From: Physcia stellaris
Lineage: Eukaryota > Ascomycota > Lecanoromycetes > Caliciales > Physciaceae
NCBI GenBank assembly: GCA_018902385.1
Contig: JABSSW010000038.1
Location: 310,001 to 374,000 of the forward strand
DNA length: 64,000 nt
Reading direction: 5' to 3'
The position numbers and the translations under genes are program-made. Within the stretch, counting starts at the first letter, position 1. The number at the start of each line of letters is the position of its first letter. This document shows positions 20,931 through 61,136 of this stretch, one piece after another. A model generated the notes under the pieces. That model was not told the DNA's origin and ran no database searches. It saw only the letters and a program-made list of their open reading frames with translations.

Positions 20931-21060
20931 ATAACGCAATTCAATTACACAACAATCATGATGTATTATACAATTATTTCGTGAAAACATTGTAATCTCG
21001 TATCGAAATAACGATTTTCTCGTTTTCAATTAATTATATACGATGTGAATTGTTCAAGAA

Positions 21061-35426: not shown

Positions 35427-36007
35427 GTCGATTCAGATAATACATATGCTTGACCGGGAGCAACAGCTGTAAGATTGTACCACTGCACCAAGAGTGAGGC
35501 CCCACAATAGTGAGTAGCGTATGGTGGTATATGAGGATAATTCTGGTCTGACAACAGCGCACAAAAGGAGAATCTCGCCCATGATTTGACGCATCTCCCA
35601 GATGATGAAATCAGACGCTAGAGTGGTCTATCGATAAGAGCGGGCTTTACGGTATCTCCGCTCGGCTCGGCTCGGCTCGGCTCAAATGAAATCAATTCTT
35701 CGCTTCCCCTCGTTCCAAAATCAGAACAACATCAAATCTACCTATCGTCAATGCCACATGCGTCTTTAGATCTCTTGATGTTATGCAACAAAAGCGCAAT
35801 CCCCTCACCAAGCGTACATATGTACTCTATGTGCATCTCTGCAGGTTTTCGTCAAGATGCGGACGTCACCACTCCCATGTTTTGGGCGTTGTTCATTCTC
35901 TTTCCCCCTTCTCAATCTTGACCTCTCATGAATCTACTCAAGTCTTCTCACCTGCCATATCCTCGTTGACGTCTATCTCCTTTTGCTCTTTGAATTCGTA
36001 GTTGACC
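35427..36007. promoter_or_regulatory. Divergent promoter region between FAD gene and transporter
   Basis: About 580 bp between two divergently transcribed genes. It contains a short CTCGG pentamer tract at about 35,660-35,683 and pyrimidine-rich stretches near 35,880-36,000, typical of fungal 5' UTRs. Confidence 0.45.
35659..35683. repeat. Pentanucleotide microsatellite (GCTCG), about 5 copies
   Basis: Perfect tandem repeats of a 5-base unit in the divergent promoter. No function is implied. Confidence 0.85.
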
Positions 36008-36942: not shown

Positions 36943-39070
36943 AGTATTCAGGTATTGAAGACATCTATTAGAAGCCGTATAACACGGCTGAATTTTTGCC
37001 GGCAGGTTTGAGAGTGACACCTTATCTCGGGATCGTAGTAACCAGAAGAAGAGGAAACAGCGTTGTTTGGCCACGAGGGGGCCGATCCTTCAAGGTCATT
37101 ACTCGTACAGAATGATAACAACTAATATGCTTTCAGTATACCTTAAGCAAAACCTCTATCATGGGTTTTGCGTAAACGTAATTTTGGGTTGAGGGTTCGA
37201 TACAATGGCTTTCTACATAGAGTCGCGGGATTAGGCCTATTTTAGCAAGTTTCCTACAACAACCTCCATTGAATTTTGAGCTGAATCTCCGAAAGGTCAA
37301 CATGGCACACATGAACCTGACCTGCACAACCGCAGGATCTTCATCTACAGATCAACGCCCGAGCCACGGTCGATCCCGCTTTACTCAATCAAGCAGGATG
37401 CATATCACACCAGAACACCCCGCTGCGATTCATGCGTGCTGGTAAGACTTCAGTGGGCGCACATTGCACGTTCAATGATTGGGGGCTTCTTAGTACGAGA
37501 GGGGGATAGCGTTTTAACATAGTCTATCATTAATGGCATCATCGCACATTCTCTTGGCACGTAAAGGTACGGGTCAGATATAGCTCCTCGCGGTGAATGC
37601 TTGCTTACCGCACAGACAACAACCTTAGAGGACGGGGTCGCCGTCGATTCCTTTGAATCTCACGTTCACGCATCTACTTGGTTGAGCGATCTGGGCAGAA
37701 ACACCTGATGGACCGCACTGACGACTATGGCATCCTCTCCTGTTCGCAAACGACTTCCATTATAGTATGGACCGCTTCAGTACTACCATGAGTTTTCTTG
37801 ATCCACATACCGGTAATGTAAGTTTTGTGGAATAACACCATCTGCGACTGCTCTCAAACTATATGTGATTAGGACTCATACACCTGACTCCTTAGGCTGC
37901 GTTGGTACACTTTTTGTTTGGTCGAGCTGTAATTCGCTTGTTGCAAAATTTTCTGGTCATGCTGGCTTTCCTCTTCACGACGAGATGCTCCGGCATCAAG
38001 CCGTCAATGGGCACATCTATACCATTAGGGCGTTCCTTGCAAGTTCTCTGTTGCAGGAATTGGATGCTTGGAGTTCTCTCCTGGATCTGCGCTATTAACA
38101 GCGCTTGCCGAAGACCATTGCTTGGGACCTGATTGAAAATTGCCTTACTCGCTGAGAACTAGCCTGCCAGCTGGATTCGCGGAGCCAACATCGCACCATT
38201 CGTATTTGGCAAAGGAGTCCGGCCTCTCTATTTTGTGCGTGTCACAGGATATGGAGCAAGAGAGAGTCGACCGAGATCGATGGCTTTTTGATTCTTCGCA
38301 GCTCCTTCGATCACTTACGTCCCCTAAATCTCAAAAACGTCTAGTGGAAGGGTCAGTCCTTGGTTAGACCCAACCGTCCAGGACCGTAATTGGAATGATC
38401 CATTTAAGACTTGATAAGGACTACCCCTTTAAGCTCTTGGTTGGACCCATCCAGTGAGGATCTTGAGCTTAAAACCCTGGCAGTACTCAGAGTCGGAATT
38501 TAAAGTAGATGCAAATGTGTCCTGAGTTGTCGCCCTTCCAAACTCTAGAATGTCCCCCCCAAGCTTGGAAGCCATCAAGCAAGAAAGAGCCATCTCATAA
38601 GCGGTTTTGGAATACTAGTAAAGAGTTATATACCTGAAAAGTTGGGAACTTGGACAACTATTCATTGTCCCGGTGCAGGAAAGTTCTCCGAACGCCTTCA
38701 TATGACGTGTTTGATTGAGACAGTTTTCGGTTCGGTACTTGAAGTTGCCACTATTGCGTCTACTTTTCATTAACTCATTCTCAATTGACACTCTCAAAAT
38801 CGTTTGAGCTACTTTGACGACGACACGAAAGCTCCAAATCAATCTTCTTGGCCAGACGAAGAAGATAGCTCGAACAATCGGACGGACTCTCCCTTCTCTA
38901 CGAAGCAGCAAGTCAATTTCCAGTGTAACAAATACTGTCCTGCAAGCTGTAAGTGCCAAATGCTTACAACGCGATCATCATACTAATTCTCAATCTAGCC
39001 ATGGGGTCAAAACTTCTAAAATGGGAAAAAGAGCCTCACTGGCATCTCCAGCCTCGAGGATGCTGAGATA
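36943..39070. other. 2.1-kb intergenic stretch, no supportable gene
   Basis: Normal composition and only short frames in all phases, none resembling a known protein. One perfect 9-bp inverted repeat is noted separately. It could hold a non-coding RNA or a decayed gene, but nothing identifies one. Confidence 0.45.
38428..38473. repeat. 9-bp inverted repeat (TTTAAGCTC ... GAGCTTAAA)
   Basis: Perfect arms at 38,428-38,436 and 38,465-38,473 with a 28-nt loop. A partly similar TTGGTT-GACCCA segment lies about 70 bp upstream. It may be a hairpin or a fragment of a small repeat; no protein is encoded. Confidence 0.5.
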
Positions 39071-39529
39071 ATGCTGTCACCACAACCATCCTCCTTCGTC
39101 TCCTATATCACGAATTGCTGGGCCCTTTTTTGCATTGGCAATTACTCACATATCTGCATGTGGAGGAAAAGCTTACTGAGCGAGAGCATAGAACAATATC
39201 TCCCGAAGCTGTCTGGGATGTCGACGCTTCTGGAGGATACATACGCATTCAATTTTCCCATACTTCTGGTCTCCATCACCTGCATGATCATCAGCGCTTC
39301 GCTTCTCCTTCGGAACAGCGACAATAAAGCCAGAGCTCTGATCACAACCATCACCCTCTTCCTGCTGGCTCTGGCTGGATCTCAGTGGGGTAGCCTAGGA
39401 GGCTCGGCACTCGAATTCTTCATGCTCTACATGCCATTCGCTCTCAGTATTGGCTGTAGCCTTGGACTCGCTTTACGTCGTAGGACGAGAGCCTATGATG
39501 CTGCTGCGCAAATCTCGGATAAGAAGTGA
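39071..39529 (+). CDS. Possible small membrane protein
   Basis: A 152-codon frame. Three hydrophobic segments are visible: FPILLVSITCMIISASLLL (about residues 63-81), ALITTITLFLLALAG (about 88-103) and FFMLYMPFALSIGCSLGLAL (about 114-135). A basic tail (RRRTRAYDAAAQ) follows. No family was recognised. It lies between the transporter and MCM3 and could be a spurious frame, but three well-spaced membrane segments followed by a charged tail are better than expected by chance. Confidence 0.35.
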   Translation: MLSPQPSSFVSYITNCWALFCIGNYSHICMWRKSLLSESIEQYLPKLSGMSTLLEDTYAFNFPILLVSITCMIISASLLLRNSDNKARALITTITLFLLALAGSQWGSLGGSALEFFMLYMPFALSIGCSLGLALRRRTRAYDAAAQISDKK

Positions 39530-43239
<3,710 letters not shown>

Positions 43240-43780
43240 TTTGCTATTTTGAAGGCTGAAGGAAGTGACTGAGTAGAAGAAGAGGGATTGAATAAGGTGA
43301 CTGAAGTTGAACGTCGCTCGGCTTTGAGGAAGCGCTGGTGAGTGGTGGTGGTAAAGAACGCGCCTTTGGACGTGTCAAAGCGCGTTAAGGATTAAAGTGC
43401 TTGCATGACGCTAACGGCTGATGCCGAGGCTCATCATTCTTAAGAGCACTAAGTATGCAGGCGAGGCAGTATCCACGGATATCAACTCTCAAAATAATCA
43501 TTGTTCATTATCTTTGATGCAAAATGCTTAATGTAAGACTGGTTCAATATCTAATACATCTATATAGATTCGACAGTAACGGAGCCCGGTCTTGTTCCTG
43601 TTGCATACTTTTGCTCCGTGCCATGGAGATCTATCCCACAGGTGTTGTAACATTATCTATACACATTATCTTCCCAGATCACAAGTCTATAAAGGGCACA
43701 ACCCCTTCAATATACAAGGAACTTGGAACACCAAAGTCAAACCGATGCGCGGCAACGATAGAATCAAGCTTCGTTTTGAA
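43240..43780. promoter_or_regulatory. MCM3 promoter and GMC 3' flank
   Basis: About 540 bp. The right part holds the 3' UTR of the GMC gene and the left part the MCM3 promoter. ACGCG steps occur near 43,368-43,386 (AACGCGCC, AAGCGCG), similar to the MluI-box-like sites of fungal S-phase genes, but this is only suggestive. Confidence 0.35.
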
Positions 43781-45445
43781 TCATCCCAGTTTTTGGATCA
43801 GCTCGGAAGCTCTTTCAGCAGCGATCATGATACCCATCTGCGGATTGACCGTCAACGGCGCCACAATCGATCCATCGACTACATGGAGGTTCTTCATCCC
43901 AACCACTATCGTATTGGTATCCACGCATGCCCCAATCCTGCAAGAACTGGACCAGTGATTGACTTGCCCAACCGCGTAGGCTGATGGAGTCGTGATGTAT
44001 TGAGCGATCTGTGCCTGCGTAGCAGATTGAGGAATGTTAAGAGGTGTAATTCCAGTGCCAGGCAACGCGTCAAAGATGCGGCGAATGAAGGTTGCAATAT
44101 CCTGCGCATCCTGTGGGTTACTGTAGTAGACACCCGATTGACCAGGAACGAAATTTGAGTCTAGAACCACCTTGCCTGTTGACTTGAGACCTGATGTGCC
44201 ATAGATATTGAGGGTAACGGTCGAGCTGTTCTGATATCCACTATATCCAGCAGTGCCGATAGTGCCTTGCATTCCCGCCAAGCTACCATCGGCACGTTTG
44301 ACTGTGTCCCAGAATACACTGATCTCTGATGCAAACGAATAAGGTCCTGAACGGTGTTGCAAGTACAACGCCTTATCGGAGGCTGGTGGGTTATCGTAAC
44401 TGTACACGTAAGATTGAAAGTTCGGACTGGAGAGCTCGATGAAGGTGTTTGGGTTGTCGAAAAGCTTAGCTCCAACTGCAGTATTATTGATCCAAGATGT
44501 AGCAGGGATCCCGCCGAGTTTGTTAGCCTTCTGAAGTCGTTCAAGCACAGCTGGGTCACCGATGCCGGATTTCATTAGAAGTTCAGGAGACTTCAGGGCG
44601 CCACCGCTCACAATCACTCGCCCTTTTGCTGACAGTGAATAGGTGGTCAAGACTCCGCTCACATTGGCAACCACGCCAGTAGCTGTGTTTCCATTACGAA
44701 CAACTCGTTGCACCCAGGCACCACTTTGCAAATGGAAGTTGGAACGTGTCAGGGCCTTTTGCATGTAGCTGATTGCAGGACCTCCTCGCTGAGCATTGTT
44801 GTAGTCATAGACTGGATGACCAAAAACCTTGTTCTTCCGTGCGGCGTTCGCGTTGATGGAAAGTTCGGTGAAGCCTGCTTTAGCAACAATCCAATTCTTT
44901 GCTGCAATGTAACCTGACTGCAAGTACTGCATCTTATCCTGCGAAGGCACATCGCTCGATGGTTGAGTCGCATATAATCGGTTGATGGAAGGTACGAGAT
45001 CAGCATGCTTCCAACCAGCGGGGAAGTAGCTGTCAAAATCCGAGGCTGGAGGTTCAAAGAAGAGACCTGCGTTGATGGCACTACTGCCACCAACAGTACA
45101 GCCGCCAAAAGCGTTCACGTTGTTGCCACAGGTCAAACTACTCGGGTTGGAAAAAATGGAGAGGTAAAGTCCGGGGACGTCGACGCGGCTCAGACTGGTT
45201 CCAGCAAGCCAAGCTGGTCGTTCACGACCCCCGGTAACATAGTATGAAGGGCCGCCTCCTTCCAGTAGCAGAACATTCTTTGCGGTATTTTCGCTGAGCC
45301 TAGAGGCAGTTATGATACCTGCCGGACCTGATCCAACTACGATATAGTCCCATGCCGTTGTAGCCAAGGAGCGCCTTTCAGTAGGAGATGCAAAAATCAA
45401 GGTAGCCGCTTGAAAAAGGAGAAATAAGGAAGAGAAACGAACCAT
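43781..45445 (-). CDS. Secreted GMC oxidoreductase (AA3, cellobiose dehydrogenase flavodomain-like)
   Basis: FAD-dependent oxidoreductase, probably secreted and acting on sugars or alcohols. One exon of 554 codons from the ATG at 45,445, which gives a clean signal peptide (MVRFSSLFLLFQAATLIFAS); an upstream in-frame ATG at 45,463 would add six residues and is less likely. DYIVVGSGPAGIITASRL binds FAD near residue 35. GMC signature 1 is near GGCTVGGSSAINAGLFF and signature 2 near GGALKSPELLMKSGIG. The active-site pair is His in GQVNHWSSS and Asn in LTVNPQMG. There is no haem (cytochrome) domain or cellulose-binding module, so this is the flavodomain alone. Substrate not determined. Confidence 0.93.
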   Translation of the reverse strand: MVRFSSLFLLFQAATLIFASPTERRSLATTAWDYIVVGSGPAGIITASRLSENTAKNVLLLEGGGPSYYVTGGRERPAWLAGTSLSRVDVPGLYLSIFSNPSSLTCGNNVNAFGGCTVGGSSAINAGLFFEPPASDFDSYFPAGWKHADLVPSINRLYATQPSSDVPSQDKMQYLQSGYIAAKNWIVAKAGFTELSINANAARKNKVFGHPVYDYNNAQRGGPAISYMQKALTRSNFHLQSGAWVQRVVRNGNTATGVVANVSGVLTTYSLSAKGRVIVSGGALKSPELLMKSGIGDPAVLERLQKANKLGGIPATSWINNTAVGAKLFDNPNTFIELSSPNFQSYVYSYDNPPASDKALYLQHRSGPYSFASEISVFWDTVKRADGSLAGMQGTIGTAGYSGYQNSSTVTLNIYGTSGLKSTGKVVLDSNFVPGQSGVYYSNPQDAQDIATFIRRIFDALPGTGITPLNIPQSATQAQIAQYITTPSAYAVGQVNHWSSSCRIGACVDTNTIVVGMKNLHVVDGSIVAPLTVNPQMGIMIAAERASELIQKLG

Positions 45446-46036
45446 GATGGAGAGGGTAGTCAACAGGCAAATAGATTTGATTTCAACGAAAGTAGTGGAA
45501 GAACCCCTTGAAAATGGGTGATATGATTACTCTTATAACATACCAGATACACAATAGCTAGGAAAAAACGAATGAGGCATGTACAGCCACGATGGGCAAG
45601 GTGGCAACATGTTACAACATATGGTTGCTTTCTCTCGTACAACTCGTATCGCAATGACGGCTAGATGCAATGCAACAGTCAAGCCTCACACCAACTGATG
45701 CCGTCTGACCCGTCTTCCATTCGGAAGGAGTTGCCAGAGGCTGTGACTAAGTAGACTAAAGAGGAGAAAGCATGCGTCTAGAACTAACCTGAACGGAGAT
45801 GCGCGGGGAAAGACAGATGGCAATTGAAGGAGGGAGATTGGAGAGGGAAATTGAAATTGAGGCCAAGCCACGATTATTAAAATAACATTTCGCTTATCCT
45901 TACAAGCTTTCTCTAGTCGCTCATCCCGCATCTCTTGGCGTTGCCCTCGGACCTTGCCGAGATTCTGAAAACACTTGCACTACACTACACGTCAGACTTT
46001 GCAATTCATTCTGGAGCTACAGTCAGCTAAGTTTTC
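45446..46036. promoter_or_regulatory. Divergent promoter region between GMC gene and FYV7
   Basis: About 590 bp between divergent start codons. A pyrimidine-rich tract lies close to the FYV7 start. No specific site was assigned. Confidence 0.4.
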
Positions 46037-46694
46037 ATGGCACCAAAGAGAAAGCGCGATCATTCCGATGCCAGCCAGGAACATGAGGAGAGCAGCAAGA
46101 AACCCAAAAAGGCTTTCACCGTCGGGCCCGCAAACCTTCCAGACGGAACCTATCGCCGCAAGAGTATGTGCCTCCCTGTCCAGGATCACATGAAACTTAT
46201 ACAGCTCTACAGCCAAAAAGATCAAGGATAGCCTCATCCACAAGGCCAAGGTCAAGAAGTCCTACGCAAAAATAAAGGAGCGGGAGCAACCAGACAATTC
46301 CCCAGCCTTCGATCCTTATGCGGTCACAGAAGAGACTCCAAGTCCGACGGTTGAGCTACATCCTGAGCGACAGGCTATGCTTGATAGTCAAGCTGCAATC
46401 GAGAAAACTGAGCCGAAGGACTACTCAGACCATCGAAGGAGAACATCAAGTCGATCGAAACCTCGTCCCTTTGAGTGGGAGGCTCGTCTGGCTGAGCAGA
46501 AACGCGAGGAAGCAAGAGCCAAGCAACTGGTTTTCGAAGCGAGCAGTAGAGAGCGTCAGGAGAAGGCCGAAGAGAGGGAGAGATTGCGCAATGCAATGGC
46601 CAAAGCGCGAAGACCGGACAGGAACGGCCAACGCAAACTAGGGAGAGAAAGTAAGGTCTTGCTTGAAAAAGTAAAGAAGCTGGTGGGCTCATAA
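46037..46694 (+). CDS. FYV7: rRNA-processing protein FYV7 homologue
   Basis: Small basic nucleolar protein of pre-40S ribosome assembly. Exon 1 is 46,037-46,163 and exon 2 is 46,213-46,694, joined in phase over a 49-nt intron (GTATGT ... CTACAG) to give 202 residues. The N terminus is Lys-rich ([11 protein letters not shown]). The hallmark is [16 protein letters not shown], followed across the splice by [20 protein letters not shown]. The C-terminal half is a charged helix ([20 protein letters not shown]), probably coiled coil, ending in KVKKLVGS. Length and order fit the family. Confidence 0.85.
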
Positions 46695-47617
46695 AGTGCT
46701 GATGCGATGCGTTGATCGGATTACATTGAGCTTACAAAAGGTCTTAAAAACATAACCTTGCAATGAGTTTTCGAATGTTACCTACCCAGAGATTGCTCTT
46801 GCGTTTGAGCAGTCCGAGCATTCCTGATAAGGAATGCCATATCGGGACCTCATCGTTGCATTACCATCATCACGGCATACGAGGTACACTGGATGTATGG
46901 AAAAAGACGTATGATCAGTGCAACCGAGAGTAGTGTCTGATACTACTGGATGATCTGACGAAGCAGAAAACTTGGACCACACTTCAGCCTTTGCTCAATG
47001 TAAGATGCAGTCCACTTTCTTAGGGGATCAATGTTCACTCATCTTCTTTAGACCTTTATTCTGAGGTTTACACAAGGATCGCGAGTTAGCATATCCTTTG
47101 GCCTGAGTACATAAAATCGAATGGAAAAGCCTTGGCGGGAGAACATGCGGATGCAGTTGTTCATCCACTATCAGCTGTGACGACGATACACTTAAATTTC
47201 GAGAGGTGAACTCAGCGCCTAGGTCGTCCACATCAATGAGTATCTGCAGATTCTGCGAAAGAACCACTTTACTATATCCGGAACAATTTTTCTAGATGGG
47301 TAGAATACTCGTGTAAGGTTTCGCGATATAATTCTTTTAAGTGCAAGTTGATTAATAACAACACTCCTTTCCTCCTCTCGTAGTAGTATTCAGATTCACA
47401 TTATCTGAGCATACTTATCTCTTCGCTGTCACGCATGCTTACCTAATTCACTGCACGAAGCCGGATAATGCTGGACGATAATTCACCGCATTTCCCTGTG
47501 TTTGCTTGAACATGTCAATCCCGGGAGCTCCGAGTCTGTCAATCTGATTGCTTCAACCATCCTCAGCACAATCTATCGCTGTGAGCGAGCGAGGGCAAAT
47601 ATCTTCGAATACTTCAC
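46695..47617. other. Intergenic, about 920 bp, no supportable gene
   Basis: Short frames only. The right end may include the 5' UTR of the next gene. Nothing recognisable. Confidence 0.4.
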
Positions 47618-49063
47618 ATGATACCCAGTCAAATGCGAAACCTGGCTGGCCCCAGCGCACTGCTGACACATCATCCACCCAGAATCCCGCGGTTCTCAAA
47701 TGCGCATTCCGTGGGACCTCAAGGTGGAGGGACCGAATGGTTGGAAGACGTGCGCCGGGATTTGAGAGATGTGAGACTTGCGGGCTACAAGGTCACAGTT
47801 GAGTCGTTTTCGACGCACGTTCGAGATGAAGGCATGCGCATGTCTTACGTTCAGTGTCGGAAAGAAATCCACAAAGATCCGACCAGTGGGTGCTTCTCGA
47901 ACTCGGTTGTCCACGAGCAGACGCAGTCCAGGAGAGTTTACATCGAGAATCCAGACGATCGCGGCTTGGTAGACCGATCCGATGTTTATGATCGAGAAGA
48001 ACCTAATCGAGAGAATGCCGGATATACGGGTATAGTACATCAGGCTTACCCTCGGCGCGATAGCCACTCGGAGAATGTACCAGCGCCTGCCTTATCTTAT
48101 CCAGATCAACATTATCAAAAAGCAATACCGGAGCCACCTGTTAGGCGACTTCTGGGAGGGCGACATTCTGACCGGCAACAGGTAGAGAGACAACATACGG
48201 ATAGTCGAAAGTCTAGAGATCAACCCGCAGACAAACCTCCTTTTACGAAACAGCACACTCCCAGAAATCAATCCGAAAACCCACGTTCGAGTAGGCAGCA
48301 GAGTACAAGCGCACAGGGCGGTCGGCAGCCGAAACTCGAACCTTCTATAGCCACAAAAGAAGTCCAAGAACTAGACAATTGGATGAGTCTCCTGCTAGCG
48401 TTAAAGGCACTCAATACCAGCATGGCTTTAGAAGAGGTCAATGTCGTGGGGCAGATTTCCGAAACGGCAGGTTTCCACAAACATCCGACATCGCTCTACC
48501 TGCCCGGATATGTGTCGAAAAGTAGGCGGCATTCAAGACAAGGACGGAGGTCAGGTGGGGCTCGGGATCGCAGATCAGGACGTTCCTCCGCATCGTTCCG
48601 CTGCACTGTGACTGGCCCATATTGGGAGTGGGATAGCGTGAGTATTATCCATCTCCAGCATTTCACCATAGGGCGCGTACTGAAAGCGTCTAGCAATCTC
48701 CCGATAGGATCGATCCGAGGCGGTGGTTCTCAGAGCAGAGTCAACAAACCCTGTTTGAGCATGTCGCGCGACTACTCAGGCTGTCTGATCGCCTATCCCA
48801 GGAACCACATCTTTGCAGGCTCATCTACAGACCTCTTCGCGAGTGGATGGCACTTTGTGGAGTGTGCGATACAGACAAAAGCCGCGTCCACTCTGATGAA
48901 TTCAGGATCGTGCTGTTTGGGAGAGAGCGGGTTAGGGCGTCGTTGCTTCAGACATCGGCTCGTTGAATTTACCCTCCTATTCAAAAGGCGTTCGCGGCAA
49001 GATCAATATCGTGCATCTACTCTAGCGAGACAACCTGGTGTTAGCGAGTTGGTCAAATCCTAG
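47618..49063 (+). CDS. Hypothetical protein, mostly disordered
   Basis: A 481-codon frame with no family I recognise. Residues about 1-245 are polar and rich in Arg, Gln, Ser and Pro, suggesting disorder. A short helical stretch (VQELDNWMSLLLALKALNTSMALEEV, about 249-274) follows. Beyond about residue 300 the frame has an odd, Cys- and Ser-rich composition, so the real protein may end or splice near there. There is no signal peptide or membrane segment. The long open frame in GC-balanced DNA supports coding at least in the first half; the exact start and exon structure are uncertain. Confidence 0.4.
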   Translation: MIPSQMRNLAGPSALLTHHPPRIPRFSNAHSVGPQGGGTEWLEDVRRDLRDVRLAGYKVTVESFSTHVRDEGMRMSYVQCRKEIHKDPTSGCFSNSVVHEQTQSRRVYIENPDDRGLVDRSDVYDREEPNRENAGYTGIVHQAYPRRDSHSENVPAPALSYPDQHYQKAIPEPPVRRLLGGRHSDRQQVERQHTDSRKSRDQPADKPPFTKQHTPRNQSENPRSSRQQSTSAQGGRQPKLEPSIATKEVQELDNWMSLLLALKALNTSMALEEVNVVGQISETAGFHKHPTSLYLPGYVSKSRRHSRQGRRSGGARDRRSGRSSASFRCTVTGPYWEWDSVSIIHLQHFTIGRVLKASSNLPIGSIRGGGSQSRVNKPCLSMSRDYSGCLIAYPRNHIFAGSSTDLFASGWHFVECAIQTKAASTLMNSGSCCLGESGLGRRCFRHRLVEFTLLFKRRSRQDQYRASTLARQPGVSELVKS

Positions 49064-50602
49064 GCGAGAAGTGGGGATATTCCAAACAAAGGAAGTCACT
49101 CAATCGAGTGGCAAAATTGTACGAAAAGGAGCTAGGGAGGAAGATATACCTCTATATCACAGGGACCGAGTCTGGATGGGGTTGCGAGGTTCTGAACAAT
49201 ACCCCTCGATCGATCTACTGTGAGTGTTCTATTGTATGTAAAATGGTTACTATTTCGTGGTTGTATCCTCGGGCGTCTACAAGCGGTCTTCTGGCAAAGA
49301 CAATATCTCAAAGAAAGAGTATAAGATATGCACTATCCTAGGCACTTCATCATATCTGTGGACAAAGATCTCTTCGGACTCAGTCTCGATGACCACGAAT
49401 TGACCTGAAAAGCCCTCATTTACCTTCGCAACATACTTGCCTACACTACACCGATCTCAAGCACAGCTCTACCCAATCCCTATTCAAGCTCCCTCTTTAA
49501 CACCCCTTATCGACCGGTGCAAAAAGAACCCCGCGGTACAATCCCCGCTCTGTTTCCATTTTGCCTCCCCTTTCCCACCTACTCTGATCCCAATCTATCC
49601 CTCTTTACCTCATTCCTTGCAGCTCTCAGCGCCAAAACCTACAGACCCCTGCCCCTACTCCTCTCCTCAACACTCCCTTGCTCCAGATAGCACCCCACTC
49701 ACTCCCAAAACCAACCATCTCCAAGCCAAAAACCTAGAAAATCCTCTAAGTATACTAAACGGCGCGAAGGGGGACAGGGATGTGTTCAACATGCTGGAAC
49801 AGCACAGTCTCATTGTTCAGAAGCGGGGGCCAGTATTCTAAGATGGGAGGAGCGGGTGTCGAGAGGGCGATTTGTGTGGTGCGCATGTATATGGGGGAAA
49901 TCTGGAGTTTCTGGTATTTTGCAATCCGAGGACCAAGTCTTCATTATCCTAACGCCATTTCGTCGAGCTCGGTTTCTGTCATTATCGCATAGCATCACGC
50001 AGGAAGCGCGACGACTCTTCAACTAAAGAATGGCTTTTTTTGCCACCATCACATCCAGTAGGCCGTCGAGAATCATAAAGAGATGATATTGTAGGTGTAC
50101 AGAAATAGAGGTGCCATTGACGTAAATATTGATCTGATTCAATCCAACTTCCATTACGGAAAAGTACGCCGCGAGATATGTTTGTGATGTAAGTCATAGA
50201 GTGATCGCGAGTCTAGAGCCTCATCAAGTTTAAAGGCAGCAAGGGAAAAAGTTCTCTGTGGTTCACAATGTTTGGAATGTCATACCTTCAAGCCCTCTGC
50301 CTACTTGAGGTCAGGATATTCATTCTTTGATGTTCGGGGAGTTGAAAGTGTCGGATGACCTAGGATTCAGGGACAGCACCAGTGAGAGTTGAGTGAGCGA
50401 TGTGTGGATCAGTCAAGCATAGACACAGAAAGTGGCCAAGATTGGATAGGATGAAAGAATTGTAGCATGCATACATACTCCGACCCAAAGTTTATTTCCA
50501 CCGCACAATGCAAGCTTATCCACATGGTACCCCAGAACGCCTTATCCCCATCCCCATGCTCGTATACGTCTTCACCATACTCCCGTATGCTTCGGAAGCC
50601 AC
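49064..50602. other. Intergenic, about 1.5 kb, no convincing gene
   Basis: Contains a pyrimidine-rich tract (about 49,440-49,740) that opens a Pro/Ser/Leu-rich frame by composition. This looks more like a fungal leader or untranslated region than a protein gene. Confidence 0.4.
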
Positions 50603-51832
50603 TCAAAACTCCTCTCCGCTATCACTGCCGACCTCAGTCCAGCTGCCAGGCGTACTAATCCCCCCAATCTCACTCATAACGTCCATATCCTCACTCCCAA
50701 TCTGACTGACATGTTCTCCGCTCTCGCTGGCCGTAGGCGTAAGCGTCCCCGCCTTTCCAGCTGTGTCTTGCTCTTGCTCTTGTGTGTCCGGCTGAGACTG
50801 CGGCGCGGAGTAGAAAGAAGTGTTCTCCGCCCATTCATTGATGGACACAGGCCAAGGTGCCGGAGGCGGCGCTTCGTCTCCGTCTGCTTCGGAGAAAGAA
50901 GGGGAAATGGGTGAGAGGGAGGCGAGATCGTCGTGATGCGGGGAGAAAGCAGATGGAACGGTAGGGGAGGAGGTAGGTGTTAAGTCGACTAGTTGCTCGG
51001 ACGGGTGGGTGGAGAGGTCATCCGTGTCGATGAGGAAGGTGTTGGGTGCTGGGGGTGTTGTTGGTGCTTGTTGTTCACGAGGAGATGTTGCGGGTAGAGT
51101 AGGTGTACTGGAGCGGGTATGGGCAATAGGAGTGGTGGATTCGTCGGCAGAGTAGAATTCCATAGGTACCTCGTCAGCGAACGGGTTTGCCAGGGTGGCG
51201 CCCATGGCTGCTCCTGCGGCCTCGGTCTTTCTCTTCTTCAGCTCTGAAGTCTCGGGCTGAGGTATGGGCTCGGCGGCCGTGGTCCTGGCGGCGGTATCAT
51301 GCGTGCTCTTGAGAAGACCGTCTTTGTCCACTAGATCATCGAATGTGCGGGTGTTGGCTCGCTTCTGCCGTCTACGCTCTTCCAGGACTCGACCTCGCTC
51401 TATGATTTCTTGCCTAGCTTTCCGCCTTCGCTCGGCTGCTTCGGCAGATTCATCCTCCCGAGTTGAGGCGTCCCGCCGCGGGTTCGGGTTTCTTGAAGGA
51501 AAAGGAGGTGCTATCTCGTCTCCAAAGTTATGGAGAGCTACGGCAATCTTACGCCGGGAGTTGTCGACCCATTCTCGGATCTCTGGATTATTCTCGTAGA
51601 CGGCAAGGCTGGCGGCAAAGAGAATGGAGAAAGAGAGGATCAAACCTAGATAAGGAGAAATCAGTCAGTGATTGGGAACCATTGTAGTAGTCGACAGAGC
51701 TGCACGGTCAGACAAATTGTTCGACATATGCAGGCAGGAGGGTGGATGAGAATAGTGCAGCTTGCCGAGTGGGGTACTCGGACAATATAGCAGAGCTCAG
51801 AGGTACTGACCTTTGGCCAACGGGGCTGGCAT
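50603..51832 (-). CDS. Fungal protein of unknown function with N-terminal hydrophobic segment
   Basis: Two exons on the minus strand: a 22-nt first exon (51,832-51,811, encoding MPAPLAK plus one base) and 51,645-50,603, joined in phase over a 165-nt intron (GTCAGT ... CTAG) to give 354 residues. The N terminus is then GLILSFSILFAASLAVYE, a single hydrophobic helix or signal anchor. It is followed by NNPEIREWVDNSRRKIAVALHN and a charged coiled-coil-like part (about 75-105, AAERRRKARQEIIERGRVLE). The rest is acidic, Ser/Thr/Pro-rich and probably disordered. The strong, ordered N-terminal 45 residues suggest a membrane-tethered conserved fungal protein; function unknown. Element D lies about 230 bp upstream of its start codon. 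Confidence 0.75.
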
Positions 51833-52065
51833 ATTGAACAGGCAATGATGGATGACTTCCTTCGACGGATGGTATGAATATGTCGTAGTTCAAGAACAGC
51901 AGCATAAGGTGGTGAAGCTTTGCAGCTTTCAGGTAGCCAGTTTGGAAGTCGTCATTGAGACATCCCGCAATGAGGCGTCATTTGTGGCGCAATCACAGGT
52001 TAGGGCTAGGGTTATACTCGGTACAAGGCTGCAAGGCGCCAATGAATCTCTCATCTAGCCATTCC
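51833..52065. promoter_or_regulatory. Promoter remnant between the 354-residue protein gene and element D
   Basis: About 230 bp of unmutated host DNA. It includes TTAGGGCTAGGGTTA at about 52,003-52,017, resembling two and a half telomere units. No other signal. Confidence 0.45.
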
Positions 52066-52301
52066 TGATAGCGTTCACAGAAAAGTGACTCACTAGCACA
52101 TGGTAATAACGTACGAAATAGTATGATGTAATGTCTTCAAGAATAGTCTTATTGAGTGATAGATATCTAAATGAAAATATGTACAAATTGCATATTTCAT
52201 GAAAATGTTTCATAAACAGTCGAATGTCATGTCAATAAAATTTAATTTTATCGATTTTAATTTTCGTTGTTCAATCATTTTCGCATTTTTTTTTGTCAAC
52301 A
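52066..52301 (-). repeat. Left (3') LTR of element D, 236 bp
   Basis: Plus strand begins TGATA and ends CAACA. It has the same length as the right LTR. The left half has normal composition; the right half, from about 52,205 on, is depleted of CC, CT, GG and AG. Confidence 0.9.
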
Positions 52302-55300
52302 TTTTTTTCTCATAACAAATTGTCGTTTTCGACAACAACAACAAATCGTTCGATTAACACGTTATGCGAATCAATGTATGACAATGCGTCATGAATTTCA
52401 AAAATAAAACAAAACAAAACGTGATATAATTGTAAAACAAAATCGAATTCAAACGTTGTATGAAATGACTGAAAATTCAATTTAGTAAATTCAACTTTTT
52501 GTTCAATGATCAGTCATATTGTATTCGATTTCGCAACAATTTTTTGTCGAAATCATGTTATGTTTCGAAATTTTCGTTATTTCGTTTCATTTGATTTTGT
52601 ATGATGTCGAAACAATTGTTTGTTTCGAATACGTGTTTTAATTCGTCAACAAAAATTTTAACGACGATCAAATTTCTCGTAAACGAAGTCTCGAAACGTT
52701 TGTTTTTTCGTTGTTTTTTTACGTGCTTTTTTCATCATTTTACGACGTGTTCTTTTCAAATTTCTCATCATCGAAAGATTTTCTTCGTTGACTTTGCGCA
52801 AATATTCAATACGTTCACGAAATATTCGCAATTGATTTTCATGATGTGTATTTGATGTTGATTTGTTTTCGAGAATTCTGAATTTGTAATTTGATTCGTG
52901 TTTTTTTTCGAATTTTGTTATCACGAACGATTCATTTCAACGTGATTTTGTTTTATTGTGTATTGAATTTGAGTTTCGAAAAAATACAATTTGTTCGAAA
53001 AAATATTTTTGTTGTTTGACGTCGACGTCATATCGTTTTTTCATTTTTTGTTTCGTTTTATCAATTCGTTTGACAACATTTTTACGAAATTTTTCACGAC
53101 GTGTCATATGATTTCAAATGAACGAAATCATTTTTTCGAACGTCGATAACACGATTTTTTCATTTCGAATGATTGTTTGAACGAAATTGATTGTTGCGAA
53201 TGCACGTGATTCGATTTCGAAAATGATTTCGTCAAATGAATATTTCAAATGTTCGATATGTTTTTCATTGCATGCAAAAATCGCTCGACGAAATGTATCA
53301 ACGACATTTTCGTTTTTTTTTTTCATTTTGTTCATCGCAACACGTAAAATTTTATTGATTCGTTTTATCATTTTTATTGATTTATGTGATTGATTGAATG
53401 TTTGAATAAAAACGATGTTGAAATTTTTGATTGTTTCGATCATTTTCGACGATTTGAATGTTGTATCGACGTTTCAATAAATTGCAATTGACATAAAATG
53501 ATTATTAATTTTATGATATTCGAGCGTTTGTTTTACGTTTTCGATCTTAATGTTGATAATAAAATATGAAAATAAACGTTTCGAAAAGTAATTCATCATG
53601 TTGCAAATATGTTTGTAATCGTACTTTGAAAATTTCGACAAATTCATGAAATCAATGTCGAATAAATCATACGATTGATACGTTTGAATTGATTTCAACG
53701 ATATTGTTTTTATTGTTGATGTTCATAGAACACATTTCATGTATTCTTGTACGTAGATTTTGACGTTCGAAATCATATAAAATCAATATATTTTGTCTTT
53801 AATACGAGCGAGTATTATATTAGTAAAAAAATGACTTGTTTCGTCATGCATTTTTTGTAGCAATGACGCAATTTCGTTTTTTTGTAAACAGACGCAATAT
53901 TCATTTTTGTATTTGTGCAATAATCGTTTATTCGTTTCGTCGTATCGATAAATATTTATTTTGCGTTTGAATGTTGTCATTGTCGTTTTATTTATTTCAA
54001 ATGCTTGATTTCATGCGTAATATTTGTAAATATTCGAATATTATTCGTCATTGATGTAATTTGATTCAATCGTTTCATTCTCGTCATTGATCGTTATTGT
54101 TGTTAATAGATTTCGAAATGCATTTTTTCAATTTTTTGTACATCAAATTCGAACGATGATACGTTTTTTTTGAATGTGATTCAATCAACAAAACATGTCG
54201 AAAACATTTTTTTCTCATAACAAGTCGTATGATATATTTTCGAAACGATTTTGTCATCGTATTTTTCAATTCGCTTTTTTGAATTTTCGTTTGACAATTT
54301 CTTGAACATGTCACGATATTTTTCTTTTTCTGTTTTTCAAAATCATTCGTCATCGTTCACATGCTTGATCGTTTTTTGATACAAGTTTTTGACGAATTGA
54401 TTTGATTCACAATTTTCGACGTTGTAAATGATTCGTGATAAATTGTTCGCAACGACGTTTTTTTCGTTTTCAATATATTTTAATTTGATATTATGTATTT
54501 TGAATTTGTTAATTCAACGTGCATAAATATTTTCGTGTTTTTTGACATTCATGAATTCAACGAGAAATTTGTAATTCGTGTGTATAATTGACGTGTTTTT
54601 TGCGTTGAAATAATGTTTATGTTTTTCAATAAAATGAACAATTGCAAATAGTTTTTTTTTGTACGTATCGTAATTGCGTTGAATGAATGTGAAATTGTAC
54701 GAATCGAATAAAATAAATTTCATTTTATCGTTTTGCAATTGTCGAATGTATATTTCGATGTTTTATTTCGATGCGTTTGTAAATGTTTCAATTGAAAAAT
54801 TAAAATCATGATCGAACATGTTCATGACGTTAATCGCAAATTTTTTGAATGTCAAAAACGTCAAATTTTCGAATTCAATTCATTTTCATTCGATTGTTTT
54901 GTTTTGAAAACGTTGAAAAAATCTCGTTATTTCGTCGAAATTTAATATTCATTTGCGTGTAACATTGATTATTTTCATGAAATTTTTCATTTTCGTTTTG
55001 TTTTGCGACACAAATCAATTGCGTATTTTGTTTATTGTTTTTTGTTTGATGTTGAATGAATTTTTTATATTGAACATCTGATTTAAACATTTGATATTCA
55101 ATATTTCAATGCGTAATTTGTCGAAAAATATTTTCATTTTATTTCATATCAAGCGCGAAAAAATTGTTGTATTAAAAATTCGTATAATTGTTGTCAAATT
55201 TCGAATTCGTCAAATATGTCATCGATATAAAATTCAACATTCGAATTTGATTCATTTGCATTATGTAACAATGACGATTTCGAATCAAACGCAAAAATGA

Positions 55301-58300
55301 TTTTCAATAATATGTTCATAAATTTCGTGAACGTGAACGACGACGTTTTAATTTTTTGCGACATTTTCGTTGATTGCAATTGATTTATTTCTGATATGTG
55401 AAACGTTAAATAATGACGATTTTTTGAATGTATTGACATTTTTCAATATTCATGTTTCATATCGATTTCGAAAAACATTTTTCATTTCGAATTCGATATC
55501 AATTTTTGTATTTTTTTGAATAGTTTTATCGTATTTTTTTGTGAATTTTCATAAATATAATGATAATTGAAAATCAAACGATTTTTTTCACTTTTTTTCG
55601 AAATCAATTTGAATAATAAATTGAATTGAAAAATACGATCATTTGTTGTCATTGTTTTTTCGTACATGTTCGCATCAATGCTTTTTTGAATGATTTCGCG
55701 AAATTTTCATTTTTTATCATTGATCAAGCGTGATTGTCGTGTTACGTACGATTTCAAATTTTGACGTGAATGAATTCGATGAGTAATTAAATTTGTAACA
55801 AAAATTTCGACGATATCGTTAATTGTTGCATCACGATAAATTCAAATCAATTGTAAAAATTTCAATCGTTTCGAATTCGATATGTCACGTTCAATTTCGA
55901 TTTTTTGAATTTTGTTTCATTTTTTCAGAAATTTCAATGATTGTGACTCGTCAATAATTCGTCGAATAAAACGTCGTTGAGTAAAAATGACGTAAAAATG
56001 AAATTATCGACGACAACATCAATGTCTAAAACTGTATTGTTGACGTGAAATTTTTCGATTGCATTTTCGTTTTTTTTTTGTTTTCATTCGATTTTTCTGT
56101 TCATTTCAATGCAATAAACATTTTATGTTTTTAAAACATTCACATTTCATCTTTTATCATTCAGAATCGTTTGAGTTTGCAATGTACGATATTCATGAAA
56201 ATTCGTATTCGTTTCATGATGTTTTAAATAAACGTACTCGATATCACAACGACACGTCGAATTGATTTCGTAAAAAATGATTTCATTCAATTTTATTTTG
56301 AAAATTCGAAATGTCGATTTCGAAACAATTTTTTCGATCGTTTTTTCATTATTAATATCAATATGTTTTTCATTTTTTTTTTAACACGTGAACGTTTTTT
56401 ATGATCATTCGCAAAATTTATTGAAAATTCTCGTCGTCGTCAATATCGTTAAAATCGTTCGAATCGTTATCATTTGATTCGTCGATATCAGAATTCGTTT
56501 CGTCAAACGAATTTTTTTTTCTTTTTTTTTTTAAAAATGATCATTCATTATTTTTTTGATTCGTTTGTTTTTTTTTTGATCGTTTTTATTATGTTTTTGA
56601 TCAACGCGAATTCAACAATTTCGAAAAAATTAATGATAATCGAATTTTCATTCAACATTTTGTCATCGATCGTGATAATTTTGATTGCAATATTCAATTG
56701 AATTTTCATTGTTTTGAATCACGAAAAATTTAATAAAAGTTTCGTATTCATTGCGTGTGAATTCACGAATGCGAAAAAACGACGTTTGATATTTTTCGCA
56801 TTGATGTTGAACATAATTCAATGATTCAAAATTTTACGTTGTTCGTTAATCATTGTCATTGTTATTTGATGTTTGACGAACTCGCTCGTATAATAAATTT
56901 TCAATTTCATGTTTTGAATCAGTTTGTTGTCAATGAAAATCAAATCAAAATTTTGATTCGTTTTAGCATGTTGATATTCAAACGAATAACGAGTCGAATC
57001 GTTTTTTTTTTGCAATACAACGAGCATTTCGAATGCAATGAAATTTTTGTTGATTTCGATTCATTTTTTTGTCATTTTCTTGATGTTTGATTTCAACGTT
57101 GACAAATCAATTTGAATCAAATTTATTTTAAAAATTTCGATGTTAATAAAAATTTGTTTTTTTCGTGATTTGCGCGAAACAAAAATTAATCGTTTGAATT
57201 CATTTTTAAAAAAAAATGAAATAGCACAAAATTGAATAACGATCATGATAATAATATTGTTTTTCAGAATTTTCTGAACATTAATTGAAAGTTTGTTTTT
57301 CAAAACATTGATTTTTTTCAATTTTTTGAATTTGTCAATGTTTTTTTTATTTTTTTTTTTTTTTTGACAAATGTTGTTGTTAATGTTTTTTCGATAAATT
57401 CAAATGATTTCGTTGCAAATTTTTTTTTACGTCAAATGTTTCATCGTCGTGTTTCATTCGTTTTTTTTTTTCGAATTTTTATCGTATAAATTTTCGTCGA
57501 TTGATCGACATTTGATTTCGAATCATATTTCGAATTTGCAAATATCGTAATTGAATTCATTGCAAAAAAACGTTGAATGACGATTTTATTCATTTCAAAC
57601 TTTTCGTTTTCTGAGTCGAATTTTTTCATTTGTATTAATTTTGACGTTGATTTTTTCATTTTTGATACAAAATTGTTCGAATTATACATTTCGTCGTATT
57701 TCGTCGTGAAAACTTGTTGATTGTTGTTTTCATTTTCAATTTTTGTATCATATATATAATACATCGCATTTATCGCAAATTGTTGAATGTTGAATGATAT
57801 ATTCGTTATTGTTGTTATTTGTGCAAATGATGTCGTTGAAACAAATAAATCAACAAATCGTTTCAATTTCGTTTGAACAATTTTTTCGAATGTTATAAAA
57901 ATTTTTATGTCAATCAATCATTTTAACAGACGTGCGATTGCATATTTTAAACGATTCATTTCATTCATTGTACAATCGCGAAGTATATGTTTTGTTTCAT
58001 CGCATCGTATGCAAATTTTATCATGTTTGTTTCGATTATATTCAAAAAAATCGTTGATGATTCGATTGTAATGATTTCATCGAATAAATCAAAACGTTTG
58101 ATTTTTTTGTTGTTGACGTATAATCAAATTTGATTCGAATTGACGTCGTTCACGAAATTGTATTGTTTCATTAATTGTTGCGACGAATACAATTGATTGT
58201 TGTTGATCACGCGAATTTTGCGACGAATATTTTGAATATTGTTGCAAAATTGAAATAAATTTCGTGTTAATAATATTTTGTATACGATTTTTGTTGATTA

Positions 58301-59739
58301 TACGATGTAATTGACGTGCAAAACGAAATATTGTTGCGAAATTATTCAAATCGAATTTTAATTTGATTAATCGTATTTGAATTTTTTTGATTTCGTTTGT
58401 TTGATAATGCATATTCGATTTTCAGAAATTAATTGCATTTTGTAAATTTACAAATTTTTTGTTTTTATTCATTTTCAATTGTTTCGTTCGATTTTTCTTT
58501 TTCGATTTCAAAATTGCAAATTGATTTTCGATCGTTTCGTAAACATTTTTTAACGTTTGAAAATTTTTAATGACGTTTACATATTTCGTTTTGATTTTTC
58601 GTCGTAAAACAAAATCGTGAAATTTTGCGACAAATTGTTCAATAATTACATTCATGATGATATCATTTTTATCATCGATTTTTTCGATTGCACGAAAAAA
58701 TTAATCACACGTTCGTAATAATCGTTCAAAATTTCATTTTTTTGCTGTTGAATTGTTTTCAATTTGTTAAATCAATTTTTTCGAATTTTTTGTTTGATTT
58801 TTTTTTTGAAAATCGTTTCAACAACAATGTCACGAAAATATTTTTGTCGACAATGTTAATTTCGACATTTTTTTTGATCATTTGTTGAATCGTGAATGAT
58901 TTTTTTGTTCATGATTCGATTTCGTTTTTCAATTTTGATTCGATTTTTGCAATTCATTCATTTGATTCAAAATCATCGTCGAATGTTTTTTTGATTTTTT
59001 GAAATCATCGTCGTGCAAACTTGTTTTCAATGAAATAATTCAATTGAAATTTTTTCATTTTGATAAATTTGATTGATTGATTTTGAACAATGAATGATTG
59101 TTGTATTAAATTGTTAAAAAGTCGACGATATTGTTAATTCAATTAATTGATTTTTTTGAATGAACGAAATTTTCTTGTTTTATAAAATTTCTTGTGAACG
59201 AAACAAAATTAAAATTATGTGATTGATTAATGTATTTTTCAAATAACGTAATGAACAATTGATTTTTCGAATCAATGTTCGAATGAACAAAATTATTAAT
59301 TCGATTCGTATCAAATGACGATGTAAAAAATTGACGTTTTCGATAAACAATAAATGATGAAATCACGATTTTTTTAAATGAAAACATTTTTTGAATATTG
59401 AAACAAAAAATTATGTTGTAAAATTTTTGCAAATCAAATATTTGTTTCGAATATTAAAAAATTTAAATGCAAATTTTTTTTGAAAATTTTCAAATATATG
59501 CGTATGTCGTTATTTTTCATTAATTCGTTGACATTAATTATTCGAATGATAAATTCGTACGAAACACATTTGATGAATTTTTTGTCAAATAATTGTATGA
59601 ATGATTGATGTTGTCATTGTCGTGAAATAAATATGAATTGTTTTTGATTTTGATGATGTTTCGATAACATTTGATATTCACAACGCAACGAAATTTTTTA
59701 ACGATTTGATTCGTTGATATTGTTGTTATTGTTAAATAA

Positions 59740-60240
59740 TTTGAACGACACGTCGTTTTTTGTCGTTTGATATTGAATGATTCGAACGACACGTCGTTTT
59801 TTGTTTGTTGATATTTTGTTCTGAAAATTTGAACGACACGTCGTTTTTCGTTTGTTTGTATTCGCATTGAATGATTTGAACGACACGTCGTTTTTTGTTT
59901 GTTGATATTTTTCGTTAAATGATTTGAATTGCACGTTGTTTTTAATTTGTAAACATTGATTTTGTTTTGAACAACACGTCGTTTACGAATTTTTTGAATG
60001 ATTTGAACAACACATCGTTCACGATTCATTAACACGTTGTATTTTTTGATTCGAACGACACGTTATTTCAAATTTATTAACACACGATATTGATTTGATT
60101 TGAACGATACGTTATTCACGATTTGCATTAAATGATTTGAACGACACGTCGTTTTTCGTTTGTTGATATTGAATGATTTGAACGACACGTCGTTTTTCGT
60201 CGATTGATATTGATTGACTTGAATTGCACGTCGTTTTTCG
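59740..60240. repeat. Tandem minisatellite in the leader of element D, about 12 units
   Basis: A core close to TTTGAACGACACGTCGTTTT recurs at about 59,741, 59,782, 59,829, 59,876, 59,925, 59,967, 60,003, 60,051, 60,099, 60,137, 60,176 and 60,218, so the period is about 36-49 bp. Units differ in spacer length and by point differences. It lies between the 5' LTR and gag. Confidence 0.88.
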
Positions 60241-60412
60241 TTTGTTAATATTGTAATTTTTGAATGTTGAATGATTGATTATCGTTTTTAATGTTTCATA
60301 ATTTGATGTGCGTTGAATTTTTTTGTAAAAATGTTGAAATGAATCATTTTACAATTTCGATATTTTTGTCAAAAACGATTAACAGCGATTTGTTTTGACG
60401 TTCGAATTATTT

Positions 60413-60648
60413 TGACAAAATTTTCAAAAAAGTGACTCATTAACACATGGTAATAACGTACGAAATAATATGATATAATGTTTTCAAAAATAATTTTATT
60501 GAATGATAAATATTTAAATGAAAATATGTACAAATTGCATATTTCATGAAGATGTTTCATAAACAGTCGAATGTCATGCCAATAGGGCCTAATCTTATCG
60601 ATCCTAGTTTTCGTTGCCCAGCCATTTTCGCACTCTTCCCTGCCAACA
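60413..60648 (-). repeat. Right (5') LTR of element D, 236 bp
   Basis: Plus strand begins TGACA and ends CAACA. The left half is hypermutated; the right half, from about 60,550 on, is unmutated. This is the mirror image of the left LTR. No perfect 5-bp target duplication lies at the TG/CA ends. CATTC occurs at 52,060-52,064 and 60,647-60,651, offset by one or two bases. Confidence 0.9.
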
Positions 60649-61136
60649 TTCACGTTTTACCTGGGCAATTTCAATGTCAATGGCTCGCAAGGTTATATGC
60701 TCGTTGCTGTTTCTTCTCCAAATGCACCATCAGAAACCAGGCTCTAATTGTATGTTTTGTCGTACCGGTTTTCCAGGTTTAAGATAAGTGGAGGAGCAAG
60801 CGAGTTACGACAGAGCCAATAGGAGGTGACACTAGTTCTAGGATGATTGAGATAGCGCGAGCGTCGGGCGACCAAAGATGGGCTAAAGCACTTTTATCCC
60901 CTTACTGTCGCATAGACAAGCTTGCCTATGACGAGGAACAACTCACGACGGAGCCATTGAATGCTGCCTTCAGCCTCCCTTCGCATATAATTAGCCTTCA
61001 TGCGTAGTTGGAAGATGAGATCCTTTGCCTGTCATGGAGCTCAAGCATCTCGTGGCGCTTATAATGTGTTAGTAACACGATACAGTCAATCATCGCAGCG
61101 GACATCCACACGTATTCAACCAATTGCCCAGTGCCA
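60649..61136. promoter_or_regulatory. Upstream region of the Zn2Cys6 factor gene
   Basis: About 490 bp of unmutated DNA between element D and the start codon at 61,137. No regulatory site could be assigned. Confidence 0.4.

Follow-up and report, generated by a model that had tools for sequence, protein, structure and literature searches.

What kind of mutation takes most of the cytosines that precede another pyrimidine out of a transposable element (TE) and leaves those that precede a purine in place? This question is raised by element D, a retrotransposon with long terminal repeats (LTRs) in a window of 64,000 nucleotides from Physcia stellaris (contig JABSSW010000038.1, positions 310,001 to 374,000; "the window" means this whole stretch). 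Physcia stellaris is a lichen-forming ascomycete (Physciaceae, Caliciales), and the repeat-induced point mutation (RIP) of Neurospora, like most repeat-mutation systems known from fungi, prefers cytosine before adenine (CpA); CpC is the least favoured context in Neurospora. We suggest, with a probability of roughly 0.75, that D records a RIP-like process with the preference CpC > CpT >> CpA and CpG, performed by one of two RID-class enzymes of this fungus. In outline, a RIP-like genome defence would have altered D and most of the other TE copies examined in situ, the copies being recognised by homology, and a RID/Masc1-class cytosine-5 methyltransferase, with or without a deaminase, would act on cytosine before a pyrimidine.

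Evidence comes from the two LTRs of D, which measure 223 bp each (236 bp in a first-pass annotation of this DNA), with a 5-bp target duplication, TTCAC, on their outer sides. As that annotation had noticed, each LTR has one mutated and one unmutated half. The breaks lie at 52167/52204 and 60514/60551, and the mutated tract starts between 52168 and 52204 and stops between 60514 and 60550. Comparison of each mutated half with its unmutated counterpart (offset 8347, no gap) polarises the changes within the window. Changes are present at 11 of 12 CpC and 20 of 22 CpT sites, at 1 of 32 CpA sites and at none of the 12 CpG sites, and there is no change of any other kind; the LTRs of D differ solely by C-to-T and G-to-A. 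The contrast between cytosines before pyrimidines (CpY, 31/34) and before purines (CpR, 1/44) is highly significant (Fisher p = 3e-17). The earlier figures of 31 changed among 34 CpC/CpT sites and of no changed CpG were exact, and a single CpA/TpG site is indeed changed, although these sites number 32 and not roughly 25.

The same rule holds in the interior of D, for which the yardstick is a full-length, little-mutated sister copy on contig C11 (G000:C11:416988-425579; loci L040 and L041). Relative to this copy, D is changed at 813 of 850 CpC and 937 of 1041 CpT sites, compared with 76 of 1118 CpA and 43 of 935 CpG sites. The proposal that the 3' neighbour sets the rule is thus borne out in both the LTR pair and the interior, where CpC and CpT are taken and CpA and CpG are spared. 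The composition of D displays the same pattern: its GC content is 26%, one CC/GG is left in 52190-60560, and the observed/expected (o/e) ratios in 52200-60570 are 0.00 for CpC, 0.12 for CpT, 1.40 for CpA and 3.37 for CpG. Two further sister copies, on contigs C24 and C9, are about half-way. Changes in C24 amount to 743/860 CpC, 489/1050 CpT, 50/1119 CpA and 43/938 CpG sites, and those in C9 to 700/858, 403/1051, 45/1118 and 44/938, respectively. Graded as a series, C11, C9, C24 and D indicate that CpC goes first, and the CpC:CpT hazard ratio is 3.5 in C9 and 3.2 in C24. This order goes beyond the first-pass annotation, as do the two RID-type genes and the DIM-2-like gene described below.

Fungal repeats are commonly methylated, and slow spontaneous deamination of methylated cytosine, with no directed mutator, could be imagined to have produced the pattern. 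This explanation is contradicted by the contrast in rates: 94-96% of CpC sites are changed in D, compared with about 5% of CpG sites and 1.3-2.2% for reverse transitions, which serve as the baseline (55/4166 in D, 85/4170 in C24 and 90/4168 in C9). Slow decay would also have to stop at limits within the LTRs and to change a sequence in one LTR while leaving the identical sequence in the other untouched, and the older C11 copy is hardly changed. We therefore regard it as very improbable. Changes from C to A or G in D relative to the sister copy are found at 55 of 4146 C sites.

Editing of retrotransposon cDNA or single-stranded DNA by an APOBEC-type zinc-dependent deaminase deserves mention, since C-to-T hypermutation of retroelements is typical of such enzymes. 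APOBEC-type enzymes read the 5' base, and their editing of cDNA is one-stranded. In the copies examined, the outcome depends on the 3' base and hardly on the 5' base, which has no effect in D (ACC 209/216, CCC 145/156, GCC 212/231, TCC 284/301) and a mild one in C9 and C24, with GCC lower (in C9, GCC 168/234 vs ACC 189/216). Both strands are mutated alike in D, C24 and C9, with no strand runs, CpT being changed on the top and bottom strands at 632/699 and 336/396 sites in D, 295/702 and 212/402 in C24, and 269/703 and 146/402 in C9. Genes of a DNA transposon (family DDE_1, below) also carry the same TGA stops as the retrotransposons. This rival is already contradicted and has very little probability left.

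Stop codons extend the test to TE genes across the genome. Loss of the first C of CCA with CpA spared turns TGG into TGA, whereas RIP at CpA would give TAG and TAA. In two open reading frames (ORFs) of the C11 copy, all 12 TGG codons are stops in C9, C24 and D (35 TGA, 1 TAA), and tryptophan codons account for 36 of the 41 new stops in those ORFs across the three mutated copies. Among the scored candidates, to which all the genome counts refer, the RVT_1 domain yielded at least 150 matches (150 of 527 candidates scored), 140 of them with stops (250 TGA, 33 TAA, 3 TAG); RVT_2 at least 137 matches (150 of 165 scored), 133 with stops (401 TGA, 101 TAA, 3 TAG); and DDE_1 10 matches (11 of 11 scored), 9 with stops (44 TGA, 3 TAA, no TAG). 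Host P450 exons gave at least 108 matches (92 of 248 scored), of which 23 had stops (14 TGA, 18 TAA, 18 TAG), probably introns that were read through. The TE domains together hold 695 TGA, 137 TAA and 6 TAG, which differs from the P450 spectrum with a chi-square p of 3e-20, a value calculated over copies that are not independent. The scarcity of TAG would also follow from conversion of existing TAG to TAA via ApG. The integrase family rve, outside this tally, had 6 matches, 1 with stops (2 TGA). A recoded TGA was considered as a reading of these codons and set aside, as TGA stands where the sister copy has TGG. Classical RIP at CpA was rejected on this spectrum and on the 76/1118 CpA vs 813/850 CpC changes in D; CpA-to-TpA is the main change neither in the repeats examined nor in the stop-codon test.

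A technical origin was also considered, in which a modified C is read as T by nanopore sequencing and left unpolished in repeats. Published work is cited here from excerpts of each paper. P. stellaris was assembled from nanopore and Illumina reads combined (PMC7513301), and polishing is difficult in repeats. Misreading of a modified C should affect one strand only; in D, C-to-T and G-to-A are about equally complete. Moreover, the effect is graded between copies, with CpC ahead of CpT, the halves of each LTR differ sharply, and 10 of the 150 reverse transcriptase matches (150 of 527 candidates scored) are free of any stop. We give such an artefact even less credence than the two preceding alternatives. 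The genome paper describes 46.57 Mb in 184 scaffolds from an ascospore-derived culture, and the term "repeat-induced" is absent from its available text (PMC7513301).

The pattern is not confined to D. In total, 14 copies or fragments of the family of D were compared with C11, and 11 display the strong pattern (D, C24, C9, L044, L045, L046, L047, L048, L049, L051 and L054), with CpC changed at 74-95%, CpT at 38-88%, CpA at 4-12% and CpG at 4-16% of sites. The diverged L053 has a weak pattern (CpC 65%, CpT 59%, CpA 24%, CpG 20%). Within the window, a second AT-rich island at the left end contains 5 CC/GG in positions 1-21000, with o/e of 0.01 for CpC, 0.31 for CpT, 1.25 for CpA and 3.15 for CpG. 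The gene-bearing DNA between the islands (21001-52060) has ratios of 0.93, 1.06, 1.12 and 0.89, respectively, with no depletion of CpY. One repeat of the left island (16295-18190) has at least 44 match rows in the genome, counting its self match and fragments, with 40 of 694 candidates scored; in four fetched matches of 1.6-1.9 kb, CC/GG is counted 0, 5, 0 and 0 times and CT/AG 60, 105, 0 and 53 times. Likewise, across 497 windows of 500 bp, a sample biased to loci of D's family, CpC o/e is 0.00-0.01 at 20-32% GC and 0.88-1.04 above 44% GC. Of eight 1-kb stretches chosen by hand, three lie on contigs already known for the island repeat, besides one on C44 and one on C7. Five have normal GC and 109-154 CC/GG, and the three AT-rich ones, on C62, C89 and C125, have 0, 0 and 1. 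One locus (L063, C62:10001-11000) has 20% GC and not a single CC, GG, CT or AG; it is the end point of the process.

The signature is present in every repeat family examined in the genome, with some copies spared: repeats are hit and the gene-bearing DNA examined is not, though C11 and the shorter fragments L050 and L052 escaped wholly or nearly. Transitions from C:G to T:A are found almost exclusively, on both strands, and the mutation is confined to about the repeat itself. Among 14 LTR ends, whose flanks were judged from composition alone, 10 break 57-167 bp inside the element, in three the mutations reach to 15 bp or less from the end, and one LTR lacks a clear break. Mutation of transcribed units only, as the switch of D's two LTRs at about the same LTR position might suggest, was discarded, because other copies break elsewhere in the LTR. 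A preference for CpA, which is typical of RIP without strictly defining it, is absent. We would like to emphasize that "RIP-like" is the right strength of claim, since RIP in the strict sense would add a duplication trigger, premeiotic timing and dependence on RID. The interpretation of the first-pass annotation, a RIP-like process with altered context, is supported by D, by 10 of 13 other family copies or fragments, by the 21-kb left island and by the TE stop codons across the genome.

The enzymes that might be responsible were sought with PF00145 in the 44-Mb genome (147 contigs), which returned four matches in three genes, one DIM-2-like and two RID-type, as the first-pass annotation had thought worth looking for. 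The gene on C3 is DIM-2-like (PCQ followed by GFSQ, DUF7893 and a BAH match below cut-off). The gene on C5 is RID-type, with PPCQFFSDAHT and EQT; its product matches G7Y79_00005g016670 of Physcia stellaris at 99% identity. The gene on C6, also RID-type, has PPCQSFSPAQ and EET; it can be read as an intact protein of 513 residues with two short GT-AG introns, nine in-frame splice choices being possible, and the splicing chosen agrees by eye with a Heterodermia protein. About 80 residues lie between QxRRR and EREFACLQ in the Heterodermia C6-type protein when aligned with C5 (counted by eye), and the Physcia C6 reading has a recognition stretch of similar size. RID/Masc1 enzymes are marked by a short recognition region and by EQT or EET where motif VI otherwise has ENV (PMC6709928). 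As C5 and C6 have both, they belong to this class, and each carries a PF00145 domain with the catalytic PCQ. RID activity in vitro is listed as not detected in a review table (PMC13297926).

Could the DIM-2-like enzyme have done the work instead, through heterochromatin-linked methylation of CpT and CpC followed by deamination, with no part for RID? The C3 gene would provide the enzyme. We know of no DIM-2 with a CpC preference. Neurospora DIM-2 methylates mostly outside CpG and prefers CpT, according to a 2026 review (PMC13297926). The tract limits argue otherwise, since at 10 of the 14 ends they lie inside the repeats with no spread beyond, and CpC near saturation (94-96% in D) with few other substitutions calls for an active mutator. 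This scenario is unlikely in our view, albeit well short of negligible. A RIP-like process run by a RID-class enzyme accounts better for these observations.

A tree of 65 rows separates the C6-type proteins from the C5 clade, each of the two clades having support of 99 in the Shimodaira-Hasegawa-like approximate likelihood ratio test (SH-aLRT). Support for the deepest joint is weak (73). The C6-type clade has a catalytic loop such as SPAQVVKPEDFEDKQ instead of the HTVMGKDDDMN type. A loop of the form ED-F/Y-E-D/E/N-KQ or near it is present in all C6-type rows compared within P0001-P0038 (P0005, P0009 and P0034 aside) except P0027. Named holders of the C6 type are Physcia and Heterodermia, and Heterodermia carries both the C5 and C6 types. 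Our guess, from bacterial enzymes, is that the neighbouring base is contacted by the loop that follows the catalytic cysteine. We tentatively favour C6 alone, over C5, as the enzyme at work; it is conceivable, to a similar degree, that RIP has become a function of the C6 type, which would recognise a 3' pyrimidine and take CpC first. A predicted structure of the Heterodermia C6-type protein (mean predicted local distance difference test score, pLDDT, 82.7) plays no part in this argument. Further RID-type proteins (P0039-P0099), many with EET or ENT and with loops such as HTRPGKDDEMN, include those of Loekoesia and Gyalolechia, lichens of Teloschistales; the PF00145 search of the Physcia genome found no gene of this kind. 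The RID of Botrytis cinerea is listed with EET (PMC6709928). EET is thus common to C6 and B. cinerea, and B. cinerea T4 has a CpT signature (PMC4352252).

Several observations weigh against our interpretation and should be set beside it. The C11 yardstick is itself a diverged family member. Changes at CpA and CpG, at 4-7% across C9, C24 and D, exceed the reverse-transition baseline slightly, which leaves room for weak activity in these contexts. Tract ends are variable, and the break fits leave 6-21 misfitting sites of 44-49, some of which are family differences; the C9 end that is mutated to within 15 bp adjoins AT-rich DNA and fits poorly. Mutated CpT sites common to several copies exceed the expectation under independence (odds ratio 1.9-3.0), which may in part reflect site preference or common descent. 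On the other hand, of the 91 CpT sites that D retains, C9 or C24 has lost 34, and the copies were to a large part hit on their own. L050 and L052 show little mutation, with CpC changed at 13/101 and 28/98 sites, respectively. C11, whose LTRs differ at 12 places, transversions included, is apparently an older full-length copy, little mutated unlike its heavily mutated sisters; the LTRs of C24 and C9 differ by 23 and 17 transitions only. The escape of such an old copy does not sit easily with a defence that hits all repeats and lowers our confidence, and it may be due to incomplete action or to exchange between the LTRs. Finally, the evidence is from one genome.

The process shares with RIP of Neurospora crassa the conversion of C:G to T:A in repeats, on both strands, with genes spared and a RID-type gene present. 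It differs in that CpA is hit first in N. crassa, whereas in P. stellaris CpA is near background and CpC goes first. Amselem et al. distinguish CpA, CpT and CpG signatures and tie the first two to RID-type genes, with no occurrence of "CpC" in the text available (PMC4352252). A lead of CpT is already known. For example, RIP in Magnaporthe oryzae and Botrytis cinerea T4 is CpT-rich with CpA secondary (PMC4352252), and some Colletotrichum truncatum families are CpT-biased, five of them with a CpA index of 0.08-0.12 (PMC6180176), compared with 1.36 in D. In the alignments of van Wyk et al., CpT and ApG changes predominated among RIP-capable control fungi (PMC7882544), RIPCAL placed CpT above CpA in Neurospora Tad1 and showed CpC depletion along with CpA in Stagonospora repeats (PMC2621366), and CpT is hit beside CpA in Anisogramma (PMC10998396), Metarhizium (PMC4133081) and N. 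crassa ribosomal DNA (PMC5555474). In these CpT-rich systems CpT, with ApG as its complement, can lead, but CpA is hit as well, and in the excerpts CpC is never named as leading; in P. stellaris it is CpC that leads. RIP-like mutation with another context is also known from Microbotryum and rusts, as CpG or TpCpG hypermutation, and from Tuber, as a CpG signature (PMC4352252, PMC4014442); in D, by contrast, CpG is almost untouched (o/e > 3). Changes at CpC form the densest class in Rhizoctonia solani AG8, in counts that are not corrected for abundance, but they are sparser in repeats than in genes (PMC4014442).

Cladonia rangiformis, another lichen fungus, resembles P. stellaris in its AT-rich TE islands and in having RID and DIM-2 homologues (PMC12542154). 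RIP is reported there by GC content, and "CpA", "CpC" and "dinucleotide" are absent from the accessible text; its repeats have mostly 10-20% GC, compared with 26% in D, which suggests that more contexts are hit in Cladonia. Badet and Croll (2025), who screened 1,239 fungi by k-mers not tied to CpA, still arrived at a preference for CpA common to RIP-like defences; Lecanoromycetes is not one of the four classes to which their 130 species with strong recent signals belong (PMC12543289). No CpC-first RIP was found in the titles and abstract openings searched, which lie mostly outside the subscription journals. The novelty lies in a lead of CpC combined with the sparing of CpA.

Features of the window are given in the table. 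The C11 copy has RNase H, integrase zinc-binding and integrase core (weak) domains and a zinc knuckle whose match is slightly below the Pfam cut-off; from their order, D is probably gypsy-like. These domains lie on the strand opposite to the plus orientation of D, whose coding strand is therefore the minus strand. The sister copies on C11, C24 and C9 share the LTR ends of D, each with its own 5-bp duplication (by eye, n = 3).

Features of the window around element D, with the basis of each assignment
Feature	Position	Strand	Basis
Left target-site duplication TTCAC	52074..52078	.	identical to 60649-60653
Left LTR (3' LTR in coding sense)	52079..52301	-	unmutated to 52167, mutated from 52204; gapless alignment with right LTR
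Hypermutated tract of element D (gypsy-like LTR retrotransposon, probable class)	52204..60514	-	composition and CC/GG count
Right LTR (5' LTR in coding sense)	60426..60648	-	mutated to 60514, unmutated from 60551
Right target-site duplication TTCAC	60649..60653	.	identical to 52074-52078
Second AT-rich island, several repeats with D's signature	1..21050	.	CC/GG count and composition
Gene-bearing unmutated control DNA	21101..52060	.	GC 0.49 (21001-52060)

Other features of the element family and its surroundings include direct repeats at 59723-60252 (93-nt copies, spacing 41-261) that contain the palindrome ACGACACGTCGT and sit just inside D's right LTR, near the start of the coding strand. A short element of about 1.3 kb in L044 (3488-4763) has LTRs and an edge pattern as in D's family and is a probable non-autonomous derivative. 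Between the islands lie ORFs of non-ribosomal peptide synthetase type (condensation, AMP-binding and carrier domains; 23222-33176), adjoining the AT-rich island, followed by an FAD oxidoreductase (DAO, 34448-35125), a formate/nitrite transporter (36202-36942), an MCM3-like ORF (40259-42376) and a GMC oxidoreductase (43781-45526).

These results bear on how RIP is recognised in genomes. D has a product index of 0.41, a substrate index of 1.36 and a composite index of -0.95, and the composite index of the neighbouring genes is -0.63. The thresholds for RIP are a product index > 1.15, a substrate index <= 0.75 and a composite index > 0 (PMC7882544), and D misses all three. Because the common indices measure CpA and TpA, D is scored as less RIP-like than the adjacent genes, and the usual index would label such repeats as un-RIPped, a blind spot of CpA-based screening. 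When CpC is struck, the defence kills genes mainly at tryptophan codons, TGG becoming TGA. Which features determine the sequence preference of RIP is an open question, in part for want of RID activity in vitro, and a CpC-first genome with both a RID of the usual motif and a diverged paralogue turns it into a question for domain swaps. If the tentative assignment to C6 is true, the C6-type enzyme would characterise a distinct RIP system, found in some of the lichen fungi, that CpA-based indices do not see.

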